From the IMG/VR virus record IMGVR_UViG_3300017762_000011, positions 1 through 44,421 of that record: 44,421 bases of DNA; one strand, 5' to 3'. Positions 5,462 to 18,700 of this stretch are shown one piece after another. This DNA comes from a virus. The position numbers and the translations under genes were made by a program. The notes beneath the pieces are model-generated. The model did not search any database. It was not told the DNA's origin and saw only the letters and a program-made list of their open reading frames with translations. Position 1 is the stretch's first letter. Each line of letters begins with the position of its first letter.

Positions 5462-6645
5462 TGCTTCTGAAGAGTAAAGTTGTTGTATGCAAACTCCATA
5501 CGGTTAACAAACTTAATCATACTGCCATCCTTATGCAGAACATATCCTTCAGGAGTTGTGACCTTATATCCTTTCTCTGTCTGGACAAAAGTCCTGAACT
5601 CTTCTAGGTGGTCAAGTTTATCTATAACCATTTGCTTCACTGCTTGCAATTCTTTGTACAGTGTTAGCATTGCTTTGAACTTGTCATTATTTTTCTCAAC
5701 ATATAATTGACTGCCATATACAAGTTCTCTTTTCTTAGTCAGGTTTGCAACTGTTTTGATCTTGGCAAGTTCTTTACTTGTTTTCTCTTCATAGAAATTG
5801 AGCATGGAATACATTGTTTCATCAATGTTTCCAATAGAACGAGCATTCTTAATTTCATTATTGAAAAACTGTTTTAAGTATGATGCAATATGAAACTTAG
5901 CATCTCCAGTAGTTCCTGTTTTAGTAACCAACTCATCTAAAAAATCTCCACATGTACTACACATGCGTTCAATAGTGGAGATATAACGATCAAACTTACC
6001 CATCTCTGCACGAGAAAAACCAACTCTATGCATTGGTGTATCATTTTGAATTACTAAAGCTTCAGTAGATCCTTTTACTTTTGCACCAGCTCTTGCTTGC
6101 ATGTCAGCAACTACGTCTCCAGTATAATGAGTATGAAATACTACACCAACTTTTGCAGTGCCTGCTGCCTTACCAATAGGATGATCTACTGGAATACCAT
6201 AAGTAATAGTATTTGGTCTGAATGTATACAAATCTTCTCCATTAATTCGTTCCCTTCTAATATCAGAAGTAAATAAAAGATCACCTTGTACCACACCTTC
6301 AATACCTAAAGTAGAAAAATAACGAAGAGAGAATTTTAATTTTTCTGCTAGGTCACCATCATACCACCCATCAATCTGTTCTTCACTATAGCAAAGTTTA
6401 GGAGCAGTCTTTGCAAATACAGATTTAGTGCCAACAAAAAACATTCCTGTCTGAGGATCTGTGCCACAAATAACTGAAGGAGCACCGTCCCATTTTGTTT
6501 GCATAAAACCACCACTCTCTTGATGACCCAACATTTTCTTAAGTTCTTTTAAAAAAGACACAGCAGCTTTACAACCCTCAACTCCATAGTTGAGCATTTC
6601 ATCTTCTAGATGTTCTAAATGTTTTAGCTGTTTAATGTTTGACAT
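5452..6645 (-). CDS. Ligase/nucleotidyltransferase-like protein (DUF6267-type)
   Basis: This 397-residue protein resembles marine phage proteins grouped as DUF6267, as far as I can recall. Motifs of covalent nucleotidyltransferases (DNA/RNA ligases and capping enzymes) are visible. Motif I is KWDG at residues 51-54, where the lysine would carry the AMP. A motif III-like strand is VVQGDLLF at 118-125. A motif IV/V-like pair lies near the C-terminus, with EGYV at 366-369 and IKF at 377-379. The spacing between III and IV is unusually long, about 240 residues with an inserted helical region, so it is either a divergent ligase or a related nucleotidylyltransferase. It lies between a nuclease-like gene and a nucleotidylyltransferase gene, with overlapping junctions on both sides. 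Confidence 0.75.
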   Translation of the reverse strand: MSNIKQLKHLEHLEDEMLNYGVEGCKAAVSFLKELKKMLGHQESGGFMQTKWDGAPSVICGTDPQTGMFFVGTKSVFAKTAPKLCYSEEQIDGWYDGDLAEKLKFSLRYFSTLGIEGVVQGDLLFTSDIRRERINGEDLYTFRPNTITYGIPVDHPIGKAAGTAKVGVVFHTHYTGDVVADMQARAGAKVKGSTEALVIQNDTPMHRVGFSRAEMGKFDRYISTIERMCSTCGDFLDELVTKTGTTGDAKFHIASYLKQFFNNEIKNARSIGNIDETMYSMLNFYEEKTSKELAKIKTVANLTKKRELVYGSQLYVEKNNDKFKAMLTLYKELQAVKQMVIDKLDHLEEFRTFVQTEKGYKVTTPEGYVLHKDGSMIKFVNRMEFAYNNFTLQKQWR

Positions 6646-8105: not shown

Positions 8106-8509
8106 TATCTGTCGTCAACAGCACGAACTTCTGAGTTATGAACATTAAACTCACCACCAGGATAACGCTTCTTCAGTTTGTTGACGTTGGTTTCAATTAC
8201 CTCATCGAAGGATATATCAAGTGCCATTGTAGCTTGAGCAACGTACCACATAACATCACCCAACTCAATGATAAGATGCTCACGATTATCTTCGTTCCAC
8301 GGTTTTCCTTGGAACACCATCTTCTTAATGATCTCAAGGAACTCACCACCCTCAGCATTAATTCCAACCCCAGCAGTAAGAAGTCTCTCAATATTGGCAC
8401 CTTGTCGATCAAGATCACCAATACGATCAGCAAAGTCAACAAAGTTTGTAGAAGCGTCTGAAGTAACTGCTGAAACAAATTCTTCATAGCGTTCAAATTT
8501 AATAGTCAT
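8105..8509 (-). CDS. mazG: MazG-like nucleoside triphosphate pyrophosphohydrolase
   Basis: This 134-residue protein belongs to the all-alpha NTP pyrophosphohydrolase family. The metal-binding helices are visible as EGGEFLEIIKKM and, downstream, ELGDVMWYVAQATMAL, giving the ExxE...ExxD arrangement of MazG. The C-terminal NKLKKRYPGGEF is also typical. The family hydrolyses (d)NTPs to monophosphates; in cyanophages it has been linked to ppGpp control or to recycling of host nucleotides. The ATG at 8509 overlaps the helicase stop as ATGA, which favours it over an in-frame GTG nine bases upstream. Confidence 0.88.
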   Translation of the reverse strand: MTIKFERYEEFVSAVTSDASTNFVDFADRIGDLDRQGANIERLLTAGVGINAEGGEFLEIIKKMVFQGKPWNEDNREHLIIELGDVMWYVAQATMALDISFDEVIETNVNKLKKRYPGGEFNVHNSEVRAVDDR

Positions 8510-9891
8510 ACGTTCCACTCGGCAAATTTAGATAGTCTAGATTGTGTGTCAGCAAATTGCTGGAAGTCCTCACCAGGAGCTTCTTCATTGATACCAATAG
8601 CTGAGGCATCATCAGCAACATCATACAGCCTCATCTTCGATCTGTCAATTCCCACCATGAATTTTCGTGAGGTAACGATGTCTGAGTATCTGTTTTTAAG
8701 TTGTTTGACCATGATGCGACCTTGTTGTTCCAACTCCTCAGTAGAGATAAGGGCAAACATAAAATCAGCAGTGGCAGGAAGACCAAAAGACTCAGAAGTA
8801 TCGGTAAGATCTGGATCGCTATTGCTAAAACCAGAACGAGTGGTCTGAGTAGCACTAACAATAGGGACGTTATGTTCCACAGCAAGACCCCGAAGCTCCT
8901 CAGCAATCGCCTTAACATAGGTATACGAGTTAACAACGGCACCTTTGTACCTCACGCTTGCACATATATTTAAATAATCAATGAATATAAGATCTGGTTT
9001 AAAATCTTTTTTTAATCTGAGATCGCTTAGAAGTCCTTTAAAATGTCCCACATGTGCAGAAGCTGTTGGATACTCCTTGATAATAAGTTTGCCCTGAGTT
9101 TTCCTAGCGATCTCATTAACCTTACTGGTAAAAAGAACCTCAGGTAATTCTGTAATATCTTTTACAGCAACGTTTAAAAGATTTGCGTCAATTCGTTCAG
9201 CAATCTTTTCCTCTGCCATCTCACATGTAATGTAGAGAACGTTGTACCCCTGTGAGAGAGCGGCACCAGCTGCATGGCACATGAATAGAGACTTCCCGAC
9301 ACCTGTACCAGCAAGAGCGACATTGAGAGTCTTGTTAGAGATACCACCTTTCGTGATAAAGTTAAACTTTTCAAGATCAAAGGGAACCTTCTCTTCTTTG
9401 CGATGGTAGAATTCATATCTGTCTGTTGCTTGTTCAATATAATCATGTCCTATGTGTTCGTCGAACGATACCGCCAAGGCTTCTTGGAGTATGGAGGGTA
9501 TCGCATCTCTCGAAAGTTTTTTATCGCCTCCATCTGCGATCTTGATCGAGGACATAAGGGCGAGATAGATTGCTCTGTCTTGACACCATTTTTCTGTTGC
9601 ATCGAGGAGCCACTCTTGGTCAACCCATTCGTCTGATAAGGAGGATACTGTCTGTACCGAACTTTGAAACGATTCGTCAGTAAGGTCATTACGATTTTGT
9701 AAGTTAATCGTAAGAATTTCTTTAGTAGGAACTTTGTCGTACTTAGAAGAAAACTCGGCAATCTCCTCAAAGATAATCTTCTCATGATAATTCTCGTAGT
9801 ATTCTGCTTTGAGAAATGGGACTACCTTTCGATAATACTCCTCGTTATGTAGGAGGTTTCTGAGGATAGTTTCTTCAATCCGTTCAATCAT
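8506..9891 (-). CDS. gp41: Replicative DNA helicase, T4 gp41-like (DnaB family)
   Basis: This 461-residue protein is the hexameric 5'-3' helicase of the phage replisome. The RecA-type core carries Walker A GTGVGKS at residues 195-201, a Walker B strand PDLIFIDYLNI and an arginine-containing region following SATQTTRSGF. The N-terminal 170 residues form the DnaB-type primase-interacting region. The length matches T4 gp41 (475 residues). It starts with an ATG at 9891 that overlaps the upstream methyltransferase by eight bases and ends with an ATGA junction to mazG. In T4, gene 41 follows uvsX almost directly; here two restriction-modification genes have been placed between them. Confidence 0.95.
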   Translation of the reverse strand: MIERIEETILRNLLHNEEYYRKVVPFLKAEYYENYHEKIIFEEIAEFSSKYDKVPTKEILTINLQNRNDLTDESFQSSVQTVSSLSDEWVDQEWLLDATEKWCQDRAIYLALMSSIKIADGGDKKLSRDAIPSILQEALAVSFDEHIGHDYIEQATDRYEFYHRKEEKVPFDLEKFNFITKGGISNKTLNVALAGTGVGKSLFMCHAAGAALSQGYNVLYITCEMAEEKIAERIDANLLNVAVKDITELPEVLFTSKVNEIARKTQGKLIIKEYPTASAHVGHFKGLLSDLRLKKDFKPDLIFIDYLNICASVRYKGAVVNSYTYVKAIAEELRGLAVEHNVPIVSATQTTRSGFSNSDPDLTDTSESFGLPATADFMFALISTEELEQQGRIMVKQLKNRYSDIVTSRKFMVGIDRSKMRLYDVADDASAIGINEEAPGEDFQQFADTQSRLSKFAEWNV

Positions 9892-10741
9892 TAAAATTTA
9901 ACCTAGCAAAGGATTTTTCACTTAACCTTGTTTGAATTAGTTTACCATAGTCTTCATGTAATTCGCAACCCAAATAATGTCTTTGTAATGATTTGGCAAC
10001 CAAGGCAGTAGTACCAGATCCCATAAATGGATCTAATACAAGATCACCTTCTTCACTACCAGCTTTGATACATGGTTCAATTAACTCTGGTGGATACACA
10101 GCAAAGTGTGCTCCCTTGTATGGTTTAGTTTTAATTTCCCATACAGTTTTCTTACGCTTCAACCCCTTACCATCCACAGTTGATTCTTTGATAGCATTAA
10201 CATCAAAATAATAATTTTGACTTTTACTAAACAAGAAAATATACTCGTGAGATTTAGTGCATCTATCTCTCACACTCTCTGGCATTGGATTAGGTTTATT
10301 CCAAATAATATCTTGTCTTAGATACCATCCGTCTGCTCTCATAGCAAAAGCAAACATCCAAGGAATACCAATAAGATCTTTTTCTTTAAGACCTTCTAGT
10401 TTGTTACCTCGTCTGGCACATGTGCTAGGTAAATCTTGGTTAGTTTTAGATACTGATTGTTTATGAATAGCTTGACCTTTACCTGGTCTATAGTTGTAAT
10501 AACTATCACCAAGATTAACCCAGCATGTTCCATCATCAGTAAGACAATTTCTTACCTCACGAAAAACCTTTACAAGATTGTTAACATATTCTTCTGGTGT
10601 TTGTTCCAGACCAATCTGATCTTCTTCACCACCATAGTTACGTAGACCATAGTAAGGTGGTGAGGTAACACACATCCTAGCTTTACTATCAAACTCTTTA
10701 AGAGTTTCACGACAGTCACCGTAGAGAATAGTATCCTTCAA
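9884..10741 (-). CDS. DNA methyltransferase, beta class, partner of the adjacent endonuclease
   Basis: This 285-residue S-adenosylmethionine-dependent methyltransferase has its catalytic motif IV first, as TSPPYY from residue 26, and its cofactor motif I last, as DPFMGSGTT at 237-245. That order defines the beta class. An SPPY rather than DPPY motif is usual for N4-cytosine enzymes, although some N6-adenine enzymes share it. The known MvaI and BcnI systems use N4-cytosine methylation, which agrees with the neighbour. Translation likely begins at TTG 10741, which overlaps the endonuclease stop and has AAGGAG about eight bases upstream. The enzyme would protect phage DNA from the adjacent nuclease. 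Confidence 0.9.
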   Translation of the reverse strand: MKDTILYGDCRETLKEFDSKARMCVTSPPYYGLRNYGGEEDQIGLEQTPEEYVNNLVKVFREVRNCLTDDGTCWVNLGDSYYNYRPGKGQAIHKQSVSKTNQDLPSTCARRGNKLEGLKEKDLIGIPWMFAFAMRADGWYLRQDIIWNKPNPMPESVRDRCTKSHEYIFLFSKSQNYYFDVNAIKESTVDGKGLKRKKTVWEIKTKPYKGAHFAVYPPELIEPCIKAGSEEGDLVLDPFMGSGTTALVAKSLQRHYLGCELHEDYGKLIQTRLSEKSFARLNFND

Positions 10742-11427
10742 TTGATGCTCTCCTTAACAAATAGTTCTTCCATTTTACCATGATTCATACGGAATGCAGT
10801 ACCACGATTACGAAGAGATTTGCCAATCATCTTCTGTGTACGCATACGAATATCAATAGCAATCATATTATTCTCGATTGCAGTGCGAAACAAGTTCTTG
10901 TCAGTACCAATGAAACGGTATGCTTCATTGTAATGGAAGTATTCTACACCGTCACGTTTCTCAACGTCAGCAAATACTTTCACACATGCAGGAAACTTCT
11001 TAGCAAACTGATTAATCAATGTGTCCCAATCCCACATAACAATAATAACATTGCCATGACAGATAGCACAGTAGTCATCAGTGGTCACGATCTGAAGACC
11101 ACGCTTATTAACAGTTTTAGTTACAGTAGATTGTCCACTCAACTCACCAATCTTTGTGGTGTGAGGGAAACCATATGTTTCAATATAATCTCTCTGGGGT
11201 ACAACCCAATCACCCTCTTTAGCGAACAGTGTTTGCTTACCACCAGCACCTTTACGTGCTGTCTTTAACTCATTGCCATCAATATCTGGTCCTGCAATGT
11301 TATTCTCTTCCAGTCCCAATTCTTGCTCGAAGGTGTGACCCACACCAGTGTTACCTGTACGGTGGGTTTTAATGTAACCACGTTCTTTGATCGCATTAAA
11401 TTTTTGCTTGAACGTTATGAGATCCAT
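10738..11427 (-). CDS. Putative type II restriction endonuclease, MvaI/BcnI family
   Basis: This 229-residue protein matches the MvaI/BcnI family, as I know it, which cleaves CCNGG-type sites as a monomer and is related to MutH. The N-terminal block GVGHTFEQELGLEEN (residues 28-42) is followed by PDIDGNELK, giving Asp48, Glu53 and Lys55 in the D-x4-E-x-K active-site layout of the PD-(D/E)XK fold. The ATG at 11427 is preferred because GAGGA lies about seven bases before it; the frame remains open 26 codons further without a better start. It has its own sigma-70-type promoter and overlaps the methyltransferase start, so the two form a restriction-modification operon. A MutH-like nicking role is the main alternative. 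Confidence 0.82.
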   Translation of the reverse strand: MDLITFKQKFNAIKERGYIKTHRTGNTGVGHTFEQELGLEENNIAGPDIDGNELKTARKGAGGKQTLFAKEGDWVVPQRDYIETYGFPHTTKIGELSGQSTVTKTVNKRGLQIVTTDDYCAICHGNVIIVMWDWDTLINQFAKKFPACVKVFADVEKRDGVEYFHYNEAYRFIGTDKNLFRTAIENNMIAIDIRMRTQKMIGKSLRNRGTAFRMNHGKMEELFVKESIN

Positions 11428-11454
11428 GGGTAATCCTCGATGGTTGATAGACAT

Positions 11455-11483
11455 ACTATACAATGAAAAAGGGGGTCTTGCAA
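11455..11483 (-). promoter_or_regulatory. Sigma-70-type promoter for the restriction-modification pair
   Basis: On the minus strand TTGCAA (11483-11478) and TATAGT (11460-11455) are separated by exactly 17 bases. The -35 element lies inside the loop and stem of the uvsX terminator. The start codon of the endonuclease is 28 bases downstream of the -10 element. Confidence 0.65.
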
Positions 11484-11489
11484 CCCCCT
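11465..11489 (-). terminator. Rho-independent terminator after uvsX
   Basis: On the minus strand AGGGGGT and ACCCCCT form a 7-base-pair stem with a TGCAAG loop, followed by a run of T. It follows the uvsX stop codon by about 13 bases. Confidence 0.85.
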
Positions 11490-11501
11490 GTAGACAGCTT
11501 G

Positions 11502-12515
11502 TCAATTGCCATAGGTGAATTCTTGTTTAGCTGCTTCTTCTAGTTTTGCCATCACTTCTTCAGTGAAATACTTCTCAGGACTTGAGAGAATAGATTTAGG
11601 ATAAACAGAAGATTCACCAACCTTAATACGATTACCAACCCGCTGGAAGACCCCGTATTGTTCACCCAACTCCAATAACCCGTAATATTTGTCCAGTCCA
11701 CGGTCGTCAAAAAATAGACGTGTCTCAATCTTACTACCCTCCTTAGTTAAACGTGATTTCTTTGCTTCACACTTGATGATGTTACCTACCAATTCAGTAC
11801 CATCTTTCTCTTTCTTTTTACCAAGATAGATGATAGTAGATGCAGCATACTTAAGACCTGTACCACCACCCATTTCTTTCATCGGAACATAGGAACCGAT
11901 AACATCATATGTATGGTTGGTAACAATCATAGGAACTTGTGCTTGACCCAGTTTAAGTGTAAGCACACGAAAGGCACCCTTGATCAACTGACTCTTAGTC
12001 ATGTCCCTGACCTGCTTATCGTTAGCAACGTCTTCCATCTCCTTGTTAGTTGAAAGCATACCAAGAGAATCTAACACAAACATCATAGGTTCACGTTTGT
12101 CTTTAGGTTCTTTCATATACTTGTCAACGATACGACAAGCTTGAGTCCTGAACTCTTCAATAGTTGAGACAGGAAACAAAACCATGCGTTGAGAATCAAT
12201 ACCACGCGACTCAATCATGTCACGGGAAATGGCGGATTCAGTTTCAAAATAAATGACGCCACCTGTAGGATTATCGCGGAGGAAATTACGAACGACACTA
12301 AGAGCAAAAAAAGTTTTTCCAGTGCTTGATTCTCCTGCAAGAGCGGTGACTTTGTTTGAAGGAAGACCTCCATACAACGAACCACTAACCAAGGCGTTAA
12401 AGATATAACTGCCAGTATCAACGTAATCAGTAATGTCGCCAGCAGCGACTCCTTCACTAACCAAACCAGCAAATTCATTGCCACTATCTTTAATTACAGA
12501 ATTTAAGAATCCCAT
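11502..12515 (-). CDS. uvsX: RecA-like recombinase UvsX
   Basis: This 337-residue strand-exchange protein is the T4 RecA homologue. Walker A is GESSTGKT at residues 61-68, the Walker B strand reads [12 protein letters not shown], and the region [16 protein letters not shown] with [13 protein letters not shown] matches the L1/L2 DNA-binding area of UvsX. It forms filaments on single-stranded DNA and acts with UvsY and UvsW in recombination-dependent replication and repair. The ATG at 12515 overlaps the end of a 58-residue gene and has GAGGA 12 bases upstream. A strong terminator follows the stop codon. Confidence 0.95.
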
Positions 12516-17727: not shown

Positions 17728-17871
17728 TCATTTAAATGTTGCAGTGACGCCCACTACAGTACAACCAGGATTACGAGCAAGAGCGACCTTGCGAGCATCT
17801 TGATAATCAACAGCGATCACCTCTTCCTTGAAGACGGTGCCTGCTTTGTATAGGGTGACTTCACACTTCAT
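17728..17871 (-). CDS. Small conserved-looking protein
   Basis: A 47-residue frame starts at the ATG overlapping the end of dam and stops four bases before the next gene. It reads MKCEVTLYKAGTVFKEEV, then IAVDYQDARKVALARNPG and TVVGVTATFK, a strand-helix-strand mini-fold. Proteins with a YxDAKxxALARNP block occur in many marine T4-like phages, as I recall. Function unknown. Confidence 0.7.
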   Translation of the reverse strand: MKCEVTLYKAGTVFKEEVIAVDYQDARKVALARNPGCTVVGVTATFK

Positions 17872-18700
17872 AATTAAAAAGGACTAGTTCCTTACGAGCT
17901 GCTTGATCTGTATTATAACTCCCCACGCTCCTCATGGTGTAAGTGTGTGCAAATTCAGCAGCTGTCCACTCATCGAAACGATCTCTGATAAGTTGTGATG
18001 AATTATAAGACACAAGTTGTGGACCAATAAATCGATCACACTTGACAGCAAAATGATCATGGTTAAAACCACTATGCATATTACCTTTCTTACCATAGAG
18101 ATTAGAACCAATCTCATAAGGAGGATCTAGATAAGTGAAAGCATTCTTATCATCAGTAAGAAGTTGTTCGTAACTGAGGTTAGTGATCTCCCACTTAGAA
18201 ATCATTCCTGAATATTCAGGGAGTTTATCAATGCCTCGCATCGAGAAATTGCTATCTGACGCTTGCTTGCTGAAGGACGAGGACTCAGTGAGACCAGAGA
18301 AAGAGCACTTATTAACAATATAAAAACACACAGCAGCAGATAGGTTGGATGTTGAATCATCGTTTAGTTTCTCCTTAGCTTCTAGAAATAATAGTTTTGC
18401 TGATACTGGTTCTGGGTGACGATTCTTGAGTTGGACTAACTGGTCACGAAGTTCTTGTCCTTGATCTTGAAGCACTCGCCAAAAGTTATAGAGTGGTCCA
18501 TACAAATCGTTTACCCAGATGTTTAGGTGTGGATACCTTTTGCCAATTTCTAATGCTACAGATCCACCACCAACAAATGGTTCACGATACTCAGTGTAAT
18601 CTTTCAGGTTAGGAATGTACTGAAAGAGTTTACTCAGGGCACGACTCTTCCCGCCTGGATACCTGAGGGGTGTCTTCAATGACTTCAATGTCTGGGGCAT
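17861..18700 (-). CDS. dam: DNA adenine methyltransferase, Dam/D12 class
   Basis: This 279-residue alpha-class N6-adenine methyltransferase shows the family opening LRYPGGKS at residues 12-19, the cofactor motif EPFVGGGSV at 40-48 and the catalytic DPPY at 192-195. T4 Dam and the D12-class enzymes share these features and usually methylate GATC, although the site is not provable here. GATC is common in the window, so the sequence is not under GATC avoidance. It starts with an ATG inside the upstream gene (71-base overlap) and sits between clamp loader genes 44 and 62, an unusual insertion point compared with T4. Confidence 0.9.
   Translation of the reverse strand: MPQTLKSLKTPLRYPGGKSRALSKLFQYIPNLKDYTEYREPFVGGGSVALEIGKRYPHLNIWVNDLYGPLYNFWRVLQDQGQELRDQLVQLKNRHPEPVSAKLLFLEAKEKLNDDSTSNLSAAVCFYIVNKCSFSGLTESSSFSKQASDSNFSMRGIDKLPEYSGMISKWEITNLSYEQLLTDDKNAFTYLDPPYEIGSNLYGKKGNMHSGFNHDHFAVKCDRFIGPQLVSYNSSQLIRDRFDEWTAAEFAHTYTMRSVGSYNTDQAARKELVLFNYEV

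Follow-up and report, generated by a model that had tools for sequence, protein, structure and literature searches.

We propose that the window, the whole 44,421-nucleotide stretch of viral DNA analysed here (IMG/VR record IMGVR_UViG_3300017762_000011), belongs to a lytic T4-like cyanophage and encodes a functional type II restriction-modification (R-M) pair, which would methylate and cut CCWGG and would strike the DNA of the host or of rival phages; we put the probability of this reading at about 0.72. Restriction enzymes are usually viewed as a bacterial weapon against phages, and in this cyanophage a full endonuclease and methyltransferase pair is found among the replication genes, between uvsX and gene 41. 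Its parts are as follows.

10738..11427, minus strand: MvaI/BcnI-family type II restriction endonuclease of 229 amino acids (PF15515; catalytic D48, E53 and K55)
9884..10741, minus strand: beta-class amino methyltransferase (SPPY) of 285 amino acids with a TTG start, putative protector of the endonuclease's site (from Pfam, PHROG and motif order)
10738..10741, minus strand: TTGA overlap of the endonuclease stop with the methyltransferase start, 4 nucleotides common to both genes (read from the sequence)

The endonuclease gene starts with the ATG at 11427 and stops at 10738, and a 255-residue, TTG-started reading up to 11505 is merely a longer open frame. Its product matched Pfam MvaI_BcnI (PF15515) with E=3.8e-38 and 132.2 bits (cut-off 25), covering positions 2 to 227 of a profile 227 positions long, and it also matched the sequences of R.MvaI (4.1e-17) and R.BcnI (2.7e-6) in the PDB, where the family profile found the same two enzymes at 5e-40 and 4.5e-32. 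MvaI_BcnI was the only Pfam family matched at E<=1, and no HNH, GIY-YIG or LAGLIDADG match appeared at that threshold, absence from this list being no proof; no PHROG family matched the endonuclease below E=0.25. The AlphaFold2 model, with a predicted local distance difference test (pLDDT) score of 92.2, aligned with DNA-bound R.MvaI (2oaa) at Z 24.0 and a root-mean-square deviation (rmsd) of 3.1 over 227 residues, and with DNA-bound R.BcnI (2odi) at Z 22.5 and rmsd 3.0 over 221 residues; the structure alignments gave 26-28% identity to R.MvaI. MutH was far below at Z 9.1, and a role in MutH-like mismatch repair was set aside because the fold match is only a distant one. Residues D48, E53 and K55 take up the D-x4-E-x-K layout; for BcnI, an excerpt of PMC4081073 gives the PD and D/EXK elements as spaced 4 residues apart. 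All three residues are invariant across 15 phage and cellular homologues, and a wider alignment of 29 homologues shows E53 and K55 throughout and D48 in 27 sequences.

The methyltransferase gene runs from the TTG at 10741 to a stop at 9884. Its product matched Pfam N6_N4_Mtase (PF01555, E=7.4e-57) and PHROG 67, DNA methyltransferase (E=3.3e-75), and SPPY at residue 27 precedes DPFMGSGT at residue 237, so that motif IV comes before motif I, the beta order. The SPPY motif, which we take to indicate N4-methylcytosine, makes this the probable product. Since both Pfam matches are so strong and the endonuclease also has its PDB matches, a chance match is excluded for both genes. The sequence-only reading had described an MvaI/BcnI-type endonuclease with Asp48, Glu53 and Lys55 that overlaps a beta-class SPPY methyltransferase, and family, residues, overlap, motif order and the overlay on R.MvaI all bear it out. 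It had looked to MutH as well as to MvaI_BcnI for relatives, and of these MutH is only a distant one in fold; the retention of the active site on which it relied is complete in the smaller set of homologues and, in the wider one, complete for two of the three residues.

The target is suggested by what other carriers of the family have lost. R.MvaI recognizes CCWGG. Sites were counted in 27 contig DNA sets, some of them partial, with expectations computed for each contig from dinucleotide and maximal-order Markov models (given below in that order). Five sets had no PF01555 match, 13 had a window-type methyltransferase, eight had other methyltransferase matches and were counted in neither class, and one was a control without the enzyme. 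G023 (8.7 kb) and G028 (4.5 kb) also carry an endonuclease without a PF01555 match and have 7 and 4 CCWGG sites; they were excluded since both contigs end at the endonuclease. Four contigs that carry a homologue and in which no N4/N6-type methyltransferase was detected have no CCWGG at all: G032 (175 kb; expected 120/91), G009 (28/21), G041 (33/20) and G031 (23.5/16). CCSGG occurs 110, 24, 21 and 15 times in these contigs against dinucleotide expectations of 65, 16, 21 and 13. Among 736 palindromic motifs, ranked where the expectation was at least 12, CCWGG was the top eliminated motif in each of the four, and 200 dinucleotide shuffles of one piece of each contig never went below 14, 14, 13 and 5 sites. 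The window-type methyltransferase contigs kept CCWGG in all 13 sampled, at 0.47-1.11 of the dinucleotide expectation. Zero-site contigs thus made up four of the five without a methyltransferase and none of the 13 with the window type (Fisher P=0.0016); these rows are not independent, as G009 is related to G041, and G003 is a relative almost identical to the window. This loss suggests that MvaI-type cutters may function in phages, and CCWGG is likely to be the site of the window endonuclease. The eight contigs with other methyltransferase matches were mixed, with observed over dinucleotide-expected CCWGG of 94/41 (G033), 12/12 (G034), 1/27 (G035), 4/67 (G036), 39/52 (G037), 29/26 (G039), 7/52 (G040) and 3/65 (G042). 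In the window itself there are 31 CCWGG in 44 kb versus 219 in 173 kb of four pair-free relatives (P=1.8e-4). No other motif of the 60 compared drops as much, an only suggestive result that would be consistent with occasional cutting of the phage's own DNA by an active enzyme.

CCSGG was also considered as a target and is uninformative in cyanophages, because CCGG is nearly all missing with or without the enzyme: the enzyme-free Synechococcus phage ACG-2014h has 1 CCGG of 88 and 12 GGCC of 129 expected in 100 kb. Both motifs are nearly absent from cyanophage contigs (the window; L044-L048, L049-L051, L062 and L063), whether or not these carry the endonuclease, a scarcity that is probably host-driven avoidance. 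A separate case is L150 and L151 (G042), with a distant MvaI homologue and GATC, AGCT and CTAG at 0 of 144, 138 and 90 expected.

The surroundings of the pair show how it may have been put together. The minus-strand order is polymerase gp43, an open reading frame of 58 amino acids, uvsX, endonuclease, methyltransferase, gene 41 and MazG, with an overlap of 8 nt between methyltransferase and gene 41. The flanks and the signals at the uvsX end are as follows.

11502..12515, minus strand: uvsX, RecA-like recombinase, 5' flank (Pfam RecA E=2.3e-12)
8506..9891, minus strand: gene 41, DnaB-like replicative helicase, 3' flank (Pfam DnaB_C E=2.4e-18)
11470..11489, minus strand: terminator-like hairpin after uvsX, AGGGGGT TGCA AGACCCCCT and then a T-rich tail (pattern match)
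11455..11483, minus strand: sigma-70-like promoter TTGCAA-17-TATAGT upstream of the endonuclease (pattern match)

The uvsX protein shares 90.5% identity with its counterpart in ACG-2014h (Kyanoviridae), and the gene 41 flank is syntenic with ACG-2014h and S-RSM4; judged from its sequence, the window is a Kyanoviridae-like, lytic T4-like cyanophage, kin of Synechococcus-infecting phages. In ACG-2014h the two flanking genes have no insert between them and share 11 nt, and they likewise overlap directly in S-RSM4, S-CAM4, S-H9-1 and S-WAM2. When distinct loci were counted among the best 80 of at least 597 uvsX loci, the slot was empty in 53, held only a methyltransferase of this family in 17 (61-75% identical) and held both genes in five; two had another insert and three had no gene 41 in the contig. 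Other inserts at this junction, of about 530 and 510 nt, were seen in L257 and L262. The methyltransferase-only loci had 5.8 versus 9.9 CCWGG per 10 kb, and a link from this slot state to CCWGG loss was dropped because CCWGG ranks only 12 of 64 motifs; in the five loci with both genes the CCWGG drop ranks 6 of 64.

The two genes do not share one history. In L104 and L106, which have the same slot as the window, the methyltransferases are 93-94% identical to that of the window and the endonucleases just 58% and 54%, and in L012 it is the endonuclease that is closer (86%, against 72% for the methyltransferase). Since the trees and identities of the two genes disagree, either endonucleases have been swapped next to a methyltransferase that stayed in place, or the reverse has happened. 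When the window is compared with L006, the endonuclease has a synonymous divergence of 0.27 and the methyltransferase one of 0.035, and the endonuclease divergence is concentrated in the first 240 nt, with identity low mainly in nt 61-180. Exchange of the endonuclease beside a conserved methyltransferase and the retention of CCWGG in methyltransferase-bearing phages fit one common site. Both genes are nonetheless constrained: the ratio of nonsynonymous to synonymous substitution rates (dN/dS) was 0.083-0.151 for the endonuclease in eight pairs, which indicates purifying selection, and 0.042-0.097 for the methyltransferase in the five pairs with a value, the pair of window and L012 being saturated. 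This selection, together with the CCWGG pattern in the other phages, supports the view that the window enzyme would be a working one. The sequence-only reading had the pair inserted between uvsX and gene 41. Position and pairing stand, and insertion as a single unit is improbable because the slot so often holds the methyltransferase only and endonucleases are exchanged independently. It had also fused a promoter of 17-base spacing to the uvsX terminator. Both sites lie as described, the -35 hexamer being inside the hairpin, yet as bare patterns neither exceeds shuffled sequence (promoter-like 8 vs a mean of 6.0; terminator-like 1 vs 0.8). A hairpin followed by a TATAAT-like box was seen by eye upstream of homologues in other contexts (L020-L024).

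The family is scarce in catalogued phages. Of 50,697 phage records just one, the unannotated match in Marine virus AG-345-L05, carries the endonuclease, and it was the sole match with any of three homologues as query; the methyltransferase was matched in 303. The family profile found 60 loci in IMG/VR, and a distant query found two more contigs. A window-type methyltransferase lies directly downstream of the endonuclease in 42 of the 60 loci, in several unrelated gene contexts, and in homologous loci the two frames likewise abut or overlap. The other 18 comprise six that end at the endonuclease and 12 without a window-type methyltransferase, of which 11 have distant enzymes and the last is L094/G001. 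Relatives of the endonuclease occur in 21 plasmid records, and a profile scan of cellular genome contigs gave two loci; since both are in metagenome-assembled bins, cellular relatives are visible through plasmids only. L071 and L072, binned as a euryarchaeal and a Rhodopirellula metagenome-assembled genome, contain both genes and resemble phage DNA, and the contig of L072 is exactly as long (14,985) as one in IMG/VR that also has the pair.

Several observations weigh against a CCWGG-specific pair in the window. One is G001, a linear contig of 127 kb whose endonuclease is nearer to the window enzyme than that of any other contig without a methyltransferase. Its endonuclease is intact, 65% identical to that of the window and complete in its active-site residues, it has 102 CCWGG against 90/119 expected, and no match to the methyltransferase families PF01555, PF00145, PF02086 or PF05869 was found in it. 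Protection by cytosine hydroxymethylation or deazaguanine was considered and dropped, as neither PF00303 (thymidylate-synthase-like) nor PF06508 (QueC) was found there. The contig may be incomplete, or its enzyme may be inactive or have a different site. Then, the enzymes of the four zero-site contigs are only about 33% identical to that of the window, so that the CCWGG target is carried over to it by family. The independent zero-site cases are also fewer than four, since G009 and G041 are related (83% in one protein). G031 has a PF05869 Dam gene directly upstream of its endonuclease and a PF02086 gene besides, and asparagine replaces D48 in two of the 29 aligned homologues, both distant.

The loss of CCWGG in G032, G009, G041 and G031 could instead have been driven by restriction in their hosts, which we regard as unlikely. 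Host-driven avoidance is common in non-temperate phages according to an excerpt of PMC6286503, GGCC and some further motifs are likewise depleted in three of the four contigs, and G035, G036 and G040 are mostly free of CCWGG despite N4/N6-type methyltransferase matches. The relatives of these phages speak against it: 11 relatives of G032 without an MvaI_BcnI match had 159 CCWGG against 128/185 expected when pooled (216 kb), and one relative of G009 without a match had 28 against 16/23 (15 kb). The absence of the endonuclease from these relatives is not proven since they are fragments, and the MvaI_BcnI model used on the G009 relative did detect the G032 gene; in the search for further G009 relatives its 1041-residue protein matched itself only, and a 358-residue protein had no match among phage records. 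In addition, the motif lost is exactly that of R.MvaI and in G032 it is the sole one of the 736 lost despite an expectation above 20. The same loss, in homologue-bearing phages without such a methyltransferase, tells against a somewhat less probable alternative, in which the window methyltransferase would be an anti-restriction gene of the classical orphan type, accompanied by a passenger endonuclease that is inactive or lacks a matched target. The 303 methyltransferase records to a single endonuclease record, the 17 methyltransferase-only slots and the CCWGG sites of G001 would fit such a passenger, but a dN/dS of 0.08-0.15, intact active-site residues and, in 42 of 60 loci, the constant order of the two genes and their overlap would not. 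We consider it very improbable that the endonuclease is a selfish gene of the homing type, which would spread by inserting copies of itself where co-infecting relatives have an empty uvsX-41 junction. One precise junction does occur in empty, methyltransferase-only and full forms, and endonuclease exchange has left recombination patches, as between the window and L006; yet MvaI_BcnI is the sole Pfam family matched, a short type II site is unlike a homing site, the pair occurs in several unrelated contexts, and no CCWGG was seen by eye in the printed stretches around five empty junctions.

If the window does encode a working R-M pair, the methyltransferase would modify CCWGG in the phage DNA, and virion DNA would arrive methylated. 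Both enzymes would be made from the pair's own promoter, and the endonuclease could be made early because the incoming DNA would already be methylated. Hemimethylated daughter DNA would stay protected and would then be re-methylated, while the endonuclease would cut unmodified CCWGG in the host chromosome, for nucleotide salvage and shut-off, and in competing phages. We infer that this endonuclease cuts CCWGG, that the methyltransferase recognizes the same site, that the genes are expressed early and what the pair does for the phage; host DNA degradation and exclusion of rivals are both plausible roles, and the data do not separate the two.

The kinds of enzyme are already known. The window endonuclease has in common with R.MvaI and R.BcnI the full-length family match, the fold and the D-x4-E-x-K layout, and differs from R.MvaI in sitting in a phage and in its low sequence identity. 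On plasmids, the methyltransferases beside MvaI/BcnI genes are of other kinds: in that of a Halorubrum plasmid motif I precedes TSPPY, unlike the beta order of the window, that of a Lactococcus plasmid is a 728-residue protein, and both gave short motif matches only to the window methyltransferase. Cyanophage members of the methyltransferase family, P-SSM2 PSSM2_041, S-SSM5 SSSM5_062 and S-SSM4 CYXG_00137, are 73-76% identical to it, but have no endonuclease annotated beside them and do not lie between uvsX and gene 41. T4 uses EndoII and EndoIV with modified cytosine to destroy unmodified host DNA while its own is modified, an analogous working with unrelated enzymes and with base hypermodification in place of site methylation. 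R-M of chlorella viruses serves in the degradation of host DNA. There too both enzymes are virus-encoded (CviAII and others, in an excerpt of PMC4081073), but these are viruses of eukaryotic algae; the same excerpt calls restriction endonuclease genes rare on bacteriophages. In the literature searched we found no description of an MvaI-type enzyme in a phage, of a complete pair at uvsX-41, of endonuclease exchange beside a resident phage methyltransferase, or of endonuclease phages without CCWGG in the DNA that could be read.

Other methyltransferases were met along the way. The window has a second one at 17861-18700 (minus strand), a D12-class Dam-type enzyme between gp44 and gp62 that is common to ACG-2014h and S-RSM4. 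In L116, whose contig is free of CCWGG, a PF05869 Dam methyltransferase (5728-6300) immediately precedes a distant MvaI homologue. In L018 (3172-4597), some 1.4 kb upstream of the endonuclease, there is a second PF01555 methyltransferase; a 197-residue protein that has no Pfam match overlaps it, and the two could be another phage restriction pair.

The endonuclease family recurs in some sixty phage contigs, and the phages free of CCWGG serve as a natural experiment: even without biochemistry, they point towards both activity and target. We tentatively extend the reading, at slightly less than even odds, to the family as a whole: MvaI-type enzymes would be offensive nucleases of marine and other phages, which would spare themselves through a resident beta-class methyltransferase, as in the window and most of its near kin, or by erasing CCWGG entirely from the genome; the orphan methyltransferases so widespread among cyanophages would in part be immunity against the endonucleases of rivals, and the states of the uvsX-41 slot would be steps in the assembly of an R-M system. 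If true, cyanophages would have a route to degrade host DNA or to exclude rivals, some orphan phage methyltransferases would have a reason, and the assembly of R-M from its parts would have a visible path.

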